In this document: piece after piece, positions 51,137-53,546 of the stretch
How positions within the stretch are numbered: position 1 is the first letter of the stretch
Layout of the letters: each line of letters opens with the position of its first letter
DNA from: Streptomyces sp. NBC_00490
GTDB lineage: Bacteria; Actinomycetota; Actinomycetes; Streptomycetales; Streptomycetaceae
Direction: 5' to 3'
Assembly: GCF_036013645.1 (NCBI RefSeq)
Contig: NZ_CP107869.1
Coordinates: 1,674,001 to 1,738,000 of the forward strand
DNA length: 64,000 bases
Position numbers and translations under genes: made by a program
Notes under the pieces: model-generated
Seen by the model: the letters and a program-made list of their open reading frames with translations, nothing else
The model's database searches: none
What the model was told of the DNA's origin: nothing

Positions 51137-52606
51137 CTACGCCACCGAGATGTCCACCGACGGCCTCACCTCGGCCGCCGCGGCCAGGGCCTCGTGCACC
51201 GGGTGGGTGTCGAAGGCGGTCAACAGGGCGGTGTCCGCCGGACGTTCGGCGGCCGGGAAGGCGATCTGCTCGTAGGCGCTCTGGAAGCGCGGGCCCCAGC
51301 GGCGGGCGCCGAGGCGGGCCGTGCGGGAGCAGTTGTCGACCATGTGGCCGACGTCGCGGGCGTGCATGTAGGGCAGGAGCGAGTCCACGGCCTCGATGAC
51401 GGACTCGTTGACGATCTCGGACCAGGGGTGGCCGCGGTCGGCGAACTCGTCGATCTGGGCCGTCATGGTGGCGACGAAGACCCCGGCGGTGAACGGGTCC
51501 ACGGGCAGCTCCCGTTCGGCCCTGCGGGTGTGCGCCCGGTCGCTCACCGACCACATCGGTGAACCGCCGATCCGGCTCATCTCACGGGCGCCGAGCCGCC
51601 GTTCGGCCAGGATCACACTGCGCAGCTCCGTGCCGTCGGCGACCTCGTCGTAGATCTCCGCGACGATCTCGCGGGCCGGGCCGTACGTCGCCGTGTACGC
51701 ACGGTCGAACACGTCACGGGCGTCGGCGTCGAGGTTCTCGCGGACCGCCCGCAGGCCGGCCCGGGAGATGGTGCGGGCGATCGGGCCGGTCACGTTCTCG
51801 CAGGAGCGTTCGTACGCCGTCACCTCGTCGTCCCCGGCGAGGCGGTAACGCGTGAAGAGGCTCTCGACGATGCCGTGGACGGCGCCCAGCAGGATGGCGC
51901 GTTCGCCGACGATGTCGGAGAGGTACTCACCGGCGAGTGTGGTGCGGAAGGTGTACGGCGAGCCGAGCGCCACCGACCAGCCCAGCGCGAGGTCGACGGC
52001 CCGGCCGTCGGGGTCGGCGTGGACCGCGTGACTGCTGTTGATCCCGGCGCCGTTGATCTCGGCGCCCTGCTGGTAGAGCCGTCGCACCGAGTCACCCATG
52101 CCCTTGGGGCACACCGCGATCACCGGATGTCCCGGCGGGAAGCCGCCGCCGGACTCGCGGAGGTGGCCGAGCAGGAAGCCGTGGGACAGGCCGATGGCGG
52201 CGCCCGGCTTCAGGGCCGCGAAGATCTCCTGGTGATGGGCGGCGAGTGCGGCGTCCGCGATCAGCAGGATCACGAGGTCGCTGTCGGCGGTGACGGCGAG
52301 CCAGTCGCCGAGGGTGCCGTCCTCCTCGGTGAAGCCGTGGGCGCGGGCGTCGGCGGCCGAGCGCGAACCGGGGCGCAGTCCGACGGCCACCCGGACGTCC
52401 GTGCCGGTGAGCGAGTCGCGCAGGTTCAGGGCCTGGGCGCGGCCTTGGGGGCCCCATCCGATGACACCGATGCGGCGGATCCCGGCGAAGGCCCGCGGGA
52501 GCAGCGGGAAGAGGTGCCGGCCGCCGCGCAGGATGGTCTCGGTGCCGCCGGGCACGTCCATCGTCTCCAGGGAGAAGACACGGGAGCTGTACGTGGTCGA
52601 GGTCAT
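51137..52606 (-). CDS. ilvC: Ketol-acid reductoisomerase, plant-like class II
   Basis: This 489-aa enzyme has the long, class II size rather than the ~330 aa of class I. The NADPH loop is VIGWGPQGRAQALNLRDS (residues 48-65), with Arg/Ser for the phosphate in GLRPGSRS. Catalytic His142 and Lys168 and metal ligands Asp231 and Glu235 (SDIVGERAILLGAVHG) are present. The C-terminal domain has NESVIEAVDSLLPYMHAR and DNCSRTARLGARRW, and the tail RPSVDISV resembles chloroplast enzymes. It isomerises and reduces acetolactate in isoleucine/valine synthesis. No other ilv gene adjoins it except the divergent regulator. Confidence 0.92.
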   Translation of the reverse strand: MTSTTYSSRVFSLETMDVPGGTETILRGGRHLFPLLPRAFAGIRRIGVIGWGPQGRAQALNLRDSLTGTDVRVAVGLRPGSRSAADARAHGFTEEDGTLGDWLAVTADSDLVILLIADAALAAHHQEIFAALKPGAAIGLSHGFLLGHLRESGGGFPPGHPVIAVCPKGMGDSVRRLYQQGAEINGAGINSSHAVHADPDGRAVDLALGWSVALGSPYTFRTTLAGEYLSDIVGERAILLGAVHGIVESLFTRYRLAGDDEVTAYERSCENVTGPIARTISRAGLRAVRENLDADARDVFDRAYTATYGPAREIVAEIYDEVADGTELRSVILAERRLGAREMSRIGGSPMWSVSDRAHTRRAERELPVDPFTAGVFVATMTAQIDEFADRGHPWSEIVNESVIEAVDSLLPYMHARDVGHMVDNCSRTARLGARRWGPRFQSAYEQIAFPAAERPADTALLTAFDTHPVHEALAAAAEVRPSVDISVA

Positions 52607-52633
52607 GGTCGAGTTGTAGGCTCCGGACGAGCA

Positions 52634-52648
52634 TTGCGACAAGCGCAA
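52634..52648. promoter_or_regulatory. Candidate LysR/IlvY operator between ilvC and ilvY
   Basis: Perfect arms TTGCG and CGCAA surround a 5-base spacer (ACAAG), giving the LysR-type T-N11-A pattern. A second inverted pair GCAACA (52645-52650) and TGTTGC (52663-52668) overlaps it toward the regulator gene. Both lie in the 67-base divergent gap. Confidence 0.55.
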
Positions 52649-52673
52649 CATCTGAAGCGGGGTGTTGCACCGA

Positions 52674-53546
52674 ATGAAAGACGCAGGTCACAGCATGCGG
52701 GAAGACCATCGGGACCTGCGTCTTTTCCTGCATCTGGCGCAGACGCTGAACTTCGGGCGGACCAGTCTCGACTGTCACGTCAGCGCGGCGACGCTGACGC
52801 GGACCGTGCAGCGGCTGGAGGCCGGGCTCGGGCACCGGCTCCTCGACCGGGGCCCGCGCGGGGTGTCGCTGACGGCGGAGGGGCACCGGTTCCGCGCCTA
52901 CGCCGTCGAGGCACTGGAGTTGTGGCGCTCCTATCGTGAGGAGCACCCCGATCCGGCCGAACTCACCGGCCGGCTGGCCGTGTTCGCCACGGTGACCGCC
53001 TGTCAGGCGCTGCTGCCGGACCTGTTGGCCCCGTTCCGCGCCGCGCACCCCCAGGTACGGCTGGACCTGCGTACCGGTGACGCGGCGGCGGCGCTGGCCC
53101 GGCTGGACGAGGGCGAGGTGGACGTGGCCGTGGCGGGGATCCCGGCGCGGCTGCCGGAGCCGTTGGTGGGCCGGACGGTCGCGGTCACCGAGCTGGTCCT
53201 GGTCACGGCCCGGGACCGGCCCGACCCGGACCTTGATGGACCCTTCGTCCTGCCCCACCGCGGCCTGGTCCGCGATGCCGCCGACCGCTGGTTCCGCGCC
53301 CGCGGCGCCGCGCCCGAGGTGGTCTGCGAACCGGACGGCCACGAAGGGCTGTTGACGCTCGTCGCCCTCGGCTGCGGCACGGGGGTGGTCCCCCGTCTCG
53401 TACTGGAGCACAGTGCGGTGCGCGACCGGCTGTCGGTGGTCGCGGCGGATCCGGCACCGGAGCCGTTTCCCATCGGGTTGTGCGTACGGCGGGCCGATCT
53501 GCGCCGCCCGCTGGTGGCGGCGCTGTGGAGCCTCACGGCACCCTGA
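52674..53546 (+). CDS. ilvY: LysR-type regulator, IlvY-like
   Basis: This 290-aa LysR protein has an N-terminal winged helix (LRLFLHLAQTLNFGRTSLDC and HVSAATLTRTVQRLEAGLG). Its C-terminal sensor contains FRAAHPQVRLDLRTGDAAAA, VDVAVAGIPARLPEP and GHEGLLTLVALGCGTGVVP with a VLEHS motif. These closely track enterobacterial IlvY along the entire length. E. coli IlvY activates divergent ilvC when acetolactate or acetohydroxybutyrate accumulates. The start is taken at ATG 52674; 52662 (GTG) and 52695 (ATG) are possible. The gene is divergent from ilvC, as in E. coli. Confidence 0.87.
   Translation: MKDAGHSMREDHRDLRLFLHLAQTLNFGRTSLDCHVSAATLTRTVQRLEAGLGHRLLDRGPRGVSLTAEGHRFRAYAVEALELWRSYREEHPDPAELTGRLAVFATVTACQALLPDLLAPFRAAHPQVRLDLRTGDAAAALARLDEGEVDVAVAGIPARLPEPLVGRTVAVTELVLVTARDRPDPDLDGPFVLPHRGLVRDAADRWFRARGAAPEVVCEPDGHEGLLTLVALGCGTGVVPRLVLEHSAVRDRLSVVAADPAPEPFPIGLCVRRADLRRPLVAALWSLTAP

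Follow-up and report, generated by a model that had tools for sequence, protein, structure and literature searches.

A plant-type ketol-acid reductoisomerase facing an IlvY-type regulator, with a predicted enteric-style switch, in Streptomyces and other actinobacteria

Ketol-acid reductoisomerase (KARI) is an enzyme of valine and isoleucine synthesis. The window analysed here, the whole stretch of 64,000 nucleotides (nt) at positions 1,674,001 to 1,738,000 of contig NZ_CP107869.1 (Streptomyces sp. NBC_00490, assembly GCF_036013645.1), carries a KARI gene that faces a gene for a LysR-type regulator (Table 1). We consider it probable that the two form a horizontally spread unit whose KARI is auxiliary and would be induced by its own substrate. 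Sequence comparison establishes the class of the enzyme and its active-site residues, the kinship of the regulator with IlvY, the operator architecture with its single exact site in the genome, the co-inheritance of the two genes and their coexistence with class I KARIs.

Judged by its homologs, the enzyme is a plant-type class II KARI, as a first-pass annotation of the window had proposed for this protein of 489 amino acids (aa). The KARIs of rice (3fr7) and spinach (1qmg) match it over the whole length with 569 and 559 bits, versus 63 bits for the Escherichia coli enzyme, and among the matches listed no other solved KARI exceeds 124 bits. Residues 2-488 align with residues 13-510 of rice KARI, which amounts to end-to-end homology at class II plant-type length, and BLAST identity is 56% to rice and 55-56% over the two plants, versus 28% for E. 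coli over a partial alignment of 285 positions. The 11 active-site positions of the spinach structure that were compared (catalytic and Mg2+/NADPH positions) are all identical in the window KARI. Pfam domains KARI_N and KARI_C are both well above their cut-offs. The NCBIfam KARI equivalog TIGR00465 scores 167 bits, below its cut-off of 226, and our claim is therefore limited to kinship with plant KARI rather than membership of that equivalog. A duplicated knot domain at the C-terminus is expected of a plant-type class II KARI. In several relatives (e.g. in genomes G009, G068 and G189), TIGR00465 positions ~187-257 are matched again in the last third of the protein; no such second match was found in the window KARI at E 0.001. 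A longer frame of 504 aa is possible from an in-frame ATG at 52651.

The source genome (10.8 Mb, 2 contigs) contains three KARIs matched over nearly the whole KARI_N profile. The other two are class I enzymes of 344 and 370 aa as called, one near 7.04 Mb in the gene order ilvB-ilvN-ilvC, the setting that the first-pass annotation gives for the main ilvC of actinobacteria, and the other a stand-alone gene near 0.247 Mb. An additional ilvC thus exists, as that annotation supposed, and the absence of any other ilvC is excluded; its description of the window KARI as a second enzyme does not hold, since two class I genes are present and the window KARI is the third. The genes around the class I KARIs were called with a simple caller and named by eye from the sequence, and no LysR gene was seen in this way beside either. 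The same reaction is expected of these Streptomyces IlvC1/IlvC2-type enzymes, but the window KARI is only 32-33% identical to them over ~290 positions, part of the protein, and its interpretation as an ordinary paralogue of the ilvBNC gene was rejected on this ground. A search of 40 carriers (26 Streptomyces, G329 and 13 other genomes) found a further KARI above the TIGR00465 cut-off in 39; the plant-type KARIs themselves stay below it. G329 (loci L122 and L127), a genome of another actinobacterial class that is 94% complete, has no KARI above the cut-off, unlike the other 39 carriers, and a plant-type KARI is its sole substantial KARI match. Among the three genomes examined in the class around G329, no second plant-type KARI was found, and one relative (G300) gave a weak class I-like match.

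On profile and tree evidence, the facing regulator is a true IlvY, and both this assignment and the divergent, enteric-like layout noted on first pass are borne out. It scores 266.4 bits against the NCBIfam IlvY profile NF008722, above the cut-off of 246, and in 14 control genomes only E. coli gave a match to that profile. The next-best LysR protein of the genome reaches 61 bits against the window IlvY, whose self score is 643. Identity to E. coli IlvY is 38%, and in a tree with a thin outgroup (five other LysR rows, two of them long-branched and one 28% filled), gammaproteobacterial and actinobacterial IlvY group apart from these rows with support of 95/96. Fifty-nine alignment columns differ in no more than one of 22 KARI-linked and gammaproteobacterial IlvY proteins, and by residue number, 38 of them lie in the effector half. 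The start at ATG 52695 is the likelier one, because the frame from GTG 52662 would cross the IlvY box IR1 and relatives align late: for 9 of 12 IlvY matches from loci outside the genus, the alignment does not begin before residues 11-15.

The DNA between the two genes appears to be a three-site IlvY switch of enteric design preceding the KARI gene. The enteric ilvYC motif, TTGCA-n5-TGCAA, and the centres of its three boxes relative to the ilvC start site (-65, -43 and -34) were taken from the literature (PMC5002191) before scoring, and every offset was scored in 81 distinct actinobacterial intergenic sequences from 93 loci in six genera, all of which contain the anchor TGCGCTTG. The top three offsets were 0 (mean 8.11/10), -31 (8.07) and -9 (6.47), followed by a fourth at 4.98, with a mean across offsets of 2.40; the anchor favours offset 0 and covers part of the -9 box, and the -31 box lies outside it. 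The resulting spacing, 22 and 31 bp from IR1, is the enteric one. The same three offsets lead in Streptomyces (69 sequences), Pseudonocardia (5), Kribbella (3) and Actinocatenispora (1); in Nonomuraea (2), offset -9 ties for third place, and in the single Microlunatus sequence, another offset ranks ahead of it. Of the 81 sequences, 75 contain a perfect TTGC-n7-GCAA, and the window's own copy of IR2 is weak (CTTCA-n5-TGCGC). Further sites at +22 (5-7/10) and +31 (6-7/10) follow the best one in E. coli, Kosakonia, Aeromonas, Proteus and Amphritea; similar single scores occur elsewhere in these stretches, so that it is the joint spacing that counts. Three-box sums are 17-25 (median 23) in the 81 sequences and 21-24 in the five from gammaproteobacteria, versus a best of 18 and a mean of 14.5 in 300 mononucleotide shuffles, which the weakest of the 81 overlap. 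On an Amphritea japonica plasmid (L177), IlvY adjoins ubiM rather than ilvC, and the upstream DNA still has the three-box spacing.

The distance from the IR3 centre to the KARI ATG is 35 nt in 65 of the 81 sequences and TACAAC occupies the -10 position in 70, from which a leaderless KARI transcript is predicted, with the IR3 centre at -35, near the enteric -34; box positions relative to the start site assume this leaderless transcript. The arrangement implies that the KARI promoter would be activated by IlvY, and the boxes constitute strong cis-evidence for the control by acetolactate that was suggested on first pass. The operator pattern TTGCGCTTGYYGCAA has one exact match in the whole genome, which is IR3, and with one mismatch, it matches three further sites, versus six for a reversed control pattern. 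Regulation of other genes of the source genome by IlvY was rejected on these counts.

Table 1. Predicted features of the KARI-IlvY unit, in window coordinates
Feature	Position	Strand	Remarks
Class II ketol-acid reductoisomerase (KARI), plant-type, third KARI of the genome, 489 aa	51137..52606	-	ATG 52606 to stop 51137; profile and structure-sequence matches
Inferred -10 hexamer TACAAC	52613..52618	-	spacing from the ATG points to a leaderless transcript of KARI
IlvY box IR3, TTGCGCTTGTCGCAA	52634..52648	-	overlaps the KARI promoter at its inferred -35 region
IlvY box IR2, overlapping IR3	52643..52657	-	offset -9 from IR3; mean 6.47/10 in 81 sequences
IlvY box IR1, TTTCA-n5-TGCAA	52665..52679	-	offset -31 from IR3; mean 8.07/10 in 81 sequences
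IlvY, LysR-type regulator, 283 aa	52695..53546	+	likely start ATG 52695 (inferred); open frame from GTG 52662 (52662-53546)

The unit is patchily distributed. Among 295 Streptomyces, 26 had a plant-type KARI (E <=1e-60), as did 2 of 396 genomes sampled across Actinomycetota, one being the window's own, which was also the only genome of that sample with IlvY at E <=1e-50. A contig scan recovered 77 loci in Streptomyces, Nonomuraea, Microlunatus, Kribbella, Pseudonocardia, Actinocatenispora and a small number of records without classification; these come from the best 80 of 90 confirmed stretches, and the search patterns were derived from the window KARI, which confines them to near relatives. 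An IlvY match (E <=1e-5) lies within the stretch at 73 of the 77 loci, that of L108 being merely a short piece, and among the 26 Streptomyces carriers, IlvY is above the cut-off in 24, partial in G182 and missing in G122. G196 has, in addition to an intact copy, a degraded plant-type KARI next to an IlvY match (L043/L044, C1:267001-268228).

In the KARI tree without a distant outgroup, the IlvY-linked enzymes (clade A) form one side of a branch supported at 100/100. On the other side, the plant enzymes join a second group, clade B (97/92, or 97/93 with the outgroup), and the G329 KARI stands next to them. Ten of the 11 active-site columns are identical in all 23 clade A KARIs, and the remaining column is so in 22. 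A single clade of Pseudonocardia KARIs was rejected in approximately unbiased (AU) tests (p-AU 1.4e-9), and one of Streptomyces KARIs was weakly rejected (p-AU 0.031). Non-monophyletic genera and patchy occurrence together indicate that the plant-type KARI has moved between actinobacterial genera, and the correlation of KARI and IlvY distances (Mantel r 0.83 over 17 loci, 0/2000 permutations) indicates that the pair travels together. Of the first-pass proposal of an acquired or an ancient enzyme, transfer between genera therefore stands within Actinomycetota, the phylum surveyed, the trees placing the enzyme elsewhere than on a normal vertical actinobacterial branch. When the tree is rooted on class I and E. 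coli KARI, branches reach 5-10 changes per column and the root is unsure; clade A is then no longer one side of a branch, though its unity is not rejected (p-AU 0.50), and neither is a grouping of clade B with L122 without the plants (p-AU 0.17) or of all bacterial rows together (p-AU 0.14). We therefore make no claim as to whether bacteria or plants were the donor, and two plant sequences set against bacteria of Actinomycetota do not identify where the plant enzyme came from. Recent acquisition of the pair from enterics is not supported, as IlvY is only 38% identical to that of E. coli, whose IlvC belongs to a different lineage.

The IlvY partner can be displaced or engaged elsewhere. Three Kribbella KARIs (L105, L107 and L114) lack an adjacent IlvY and have other genes in its place, and all three boxes are kept (sum 24 each). 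Such boxes led us to expect an IlvY elsewhere in these genomes, and the prediction held in all three: an IlvY lies 6.2, 7.0 and 7.0 kb upstream, on the contig and strand that carry the KARI, 70-74% identical to the window IlvY over residues 15-291 and with no stops there. The view of the IlvY genes of G687 and G690 as broken was rejected, the matching stretch (residues 15/16-291) having no in-frame stops. Among Streptomyces without a plant-type KARI, five carry an IlvY of 245-271 bits that is 58-60% identical to the window's, together with only class I-like KARI matches. In four of these (L164, L165, L167 and L168), IlvY faces a gene of 255-256 aa of methyltransferase type (the domain was found in the two that were scanned, and the other two are alike by eye); in the fifth, an isochorismatase-like gene lies on the facing side. 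Three-box remains at the five loci sum to 18-21, and the five proteins form one clade (100/100) among KARI-linked IlvYs, with enclosing forks of 90/83 and 89/78, so that a derivation of these five regulators from a KARI-linked IlvY is likely, though not certain. Only 2 of the 59 conserved IlvY columns are changed in all five, both in the DNA-binding half, and these regulators share most effector-half residues with KARI-linked IlvY. Four other IlvY-like Streptomyces matches (141-150 bits) were not accepted as IlvY; the two inspected (L169 and L170) group with other LysR proteins.

Clade B has a different setting. Its members are G122, three linear Streptomyces plasmids and the second KARI of Pseudonocardia spinosispora (L163). 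Both clade B and the G329 KARIs are without boxes, with three-box sums of 12-18 that fall within the shuffle range, and no IlvY match was found in G122 or G329 at E <=1e-35; in G691, an IlvY match is present, beside its clade A copy. In P. spinosispora (L163:9281-19998), homology to the clade B KARI starts ~0.2 kb past the end of a C-A-PCP-reductase nonribosomal peptide synthetase (NRPS) gene, which adjoins a polyketide synthase (PKS) gene with a luciferase-like monooxygenase domain. Upstream of the clade B KARI on plasmid L123 (NZ_CP109191.1, 8343-15482) are genes for a terpene synthase, a major facilitator superfamily (MFS) transporter, a flavin reductase and a MEKHLA-domain protein, and on plasmid L124, the KARI is beside an MFS transporter. 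These neighbourhoods suggest that clade B KARI is used in specialised metabolism, either for precursor supply or for self-resistance. On a 1-Mb Streptomyces plasmid, an enolase-like frame named by eye (L125:5853-7250) lies ~7 kb from the clade B KARI. Around clade A, no PKS- or NRPS-sized gene occurs in the 40 most widespread neighbour groups of the 77 loci, as judged by length (not all groups were annotated, and none by search); a natural-product cluster there was rejected for this reason. The recurring clade A groups (present, for example, in 49, 35 and 35 loci) resemble a fixed chromosomal neighbourhood.

In the mechanism we propose, IlvY would bind the three boxes in the short stretch between the divergent genes, and a build-up of acetolactate or acetohydroxybutyrate would provide the ligand and presumed inducer. 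Ligand-bound IlvY would then activate the putative leaderless transcript of the plant-type KARI, which would drain the accumulated substrate pool as an auxiliary to the class I enzymes. The benefit may be a high affinity for the substrate, for Mg2+, or for both, as in plant enzymes. Values listed in PMC5940873 give plant KARI a Km of ~11 µM for acetolactate and 5 µM for Mg2+, Streptomyces class I KARI a Km of 0.8-12 mM for acetolactate, and bacterial and fungal KARI a Km of 420-900 µM for Mg2+. By analogy, the window KARI may share the plant-like kinetics.

Several observations weigh against a substrate-induced auxiliary KARI. Copies that are truncated or degraded (G182, G196, L119-L121) mark the unit as dispensable, and its presence in so few Streptomyces shows that growth does not require it. 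In Kribbella, the displaced IlvY genes lack a three-box site of their own (best sums 15-16, as in shuffles), and their position on the same strand as KARI means that the enteric layout is not universal. IlvYs facing methyltransferase or isochorismatase-like genes make it clear that kinship with IlvY is by itself not enough to tell what the regulator controls. The low carrier frequency (26/295) and the decaying copies would also suit a xenolog that is neutral or decaying, a mobile gene pair gained and lost with no physiological role of its own. We regard this as quite unlikely, as operators, active-site residues and frames are kept in most of the examined loci over six genera, which neutral drift would not do.

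It is also conceivable that the plant-type KARI is insensitive to a natural KARI inhibitor from soil or from relatives. Inhibition of the class I enzymes would then raise acetolactate and induce the insensitive enzyme, a bypass that needs a sensor of accumulated substrate such as IlvY would be, and the IlvY-free clade B would serve as self-resistance in producers. The clade B KARI directly downstream of the NRPS gene and near the PKS gene in L163 fits this explanation, as do the MFS transporter of L124 and the terpene synthase, MFS transporter and flavin reductase of L123. However, the 40 clade A neighbour groups contain nothing of PKS or NRPS size, L123 and L124 share only the MFS gene near KARI, and the two neighbours named in L125 are transposase and resolvase genes. 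We know of no natural KARI inhibitor from these organisms, and a literature search gave nothing related by title, and we consider such a bypass rather unlikely. The L163 copy may instead be mere precursor supply, as PMC4353338 proposes for the KARI of the valanimycin cluster. An extended version, in which clade B protects producers of a KARI-targeting natural product, clade A gives bystanders an inducible bypass and the chloroplast enzyme came from this bacterial pool, seems very unlikely to us. Finally, the main substrate could be a specialised 2-ketol acid sensed by IlvY, given that KARIs are promiscuous, that Streptomyces paralogues are described as differing in substrate preference (PMC4353338) and that the methyltransferase-linked IlvYs exemplify re-use of the regulator. 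With active-site residues equal to those of spinach KARI, 38 of the 59 conserved IlvY columns in the effector half and the two columns changed in all five methyltransferase-linked proteins both in the DNA-binding half, this is highly improbable.

Comparison with known systems places the unit between two familiar ones. Like E. coli ilvY-ilvC, it combines a divergent IlvY with a class II KARI, a 22/31-bp box spacing and an IR3 at about -34/-35. Unlike E. coli ilvC, which belongs to another class II lineage (28% identity, partial alignment) and lies beside ilvD and ilvA, the window KARI stands alone as a third KARI; IR1 is the strongest box in E. coli, whereas IR1 and IR3 score alike in actinobacteria, and the window transcript seems to be leaderless. 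Chloroplast KARI shares whole-length homology and active-site residues with the window enzyme, but the latter is bacterial and IlvY-linked, and the plants group with clade B, not clade A. A class II KARI has been reported from an actinobacterial (Mycobacterium tuberculosis) assembly as MtKARI-II, but according to PMC8985424, it is of E. coli type (86% to 1YRL) and its DNA is 100% identical to a Morganella gene. KARI Svi2 of Streptomyces viridifaciens resembles the clade B copy of L163 as a paralogue recruited for making a natural product, lying beside the valanimycin cluster; it differs in being listed as class I (PMC5940873) and in its ilvBNCE operon (PMC4353338). The terms 'class II' and 'LysR' were not found in the main text of this last study on Streptomyces KARI. 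An alignment of 1,682 class II KARI sequences mentioned in PMC9632902 may include proteins such as those described here. Titles and abstract openings, a scope outside which most subscription papers fall, yielded no report of plant-type KARI or IlvY in actinobacteria, and the accessible text of PMC6939163 and PMC11760712 added nothing further on either.

New here are the 81 three-box intergenic sequences, the Kribbella loci that keep the boxes, the patchy and transferred KARI, the box-free clade B that groups with plants, and the methyltransferase-facing IlvYs. A textbook enteric switch is kept box by box in actinobacteria while the enzyme it would control is of a different class II lineage, which implies that the histories of switch and enzyme are separable. 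Chloroplast KARI is a herbicide target, and the results provide bacterial relatives of it that come with a candidate substrate-responsive promoter. They also single out a gene cluster whose plant-type KARI may act as a precursor or self-resistance enzyme.

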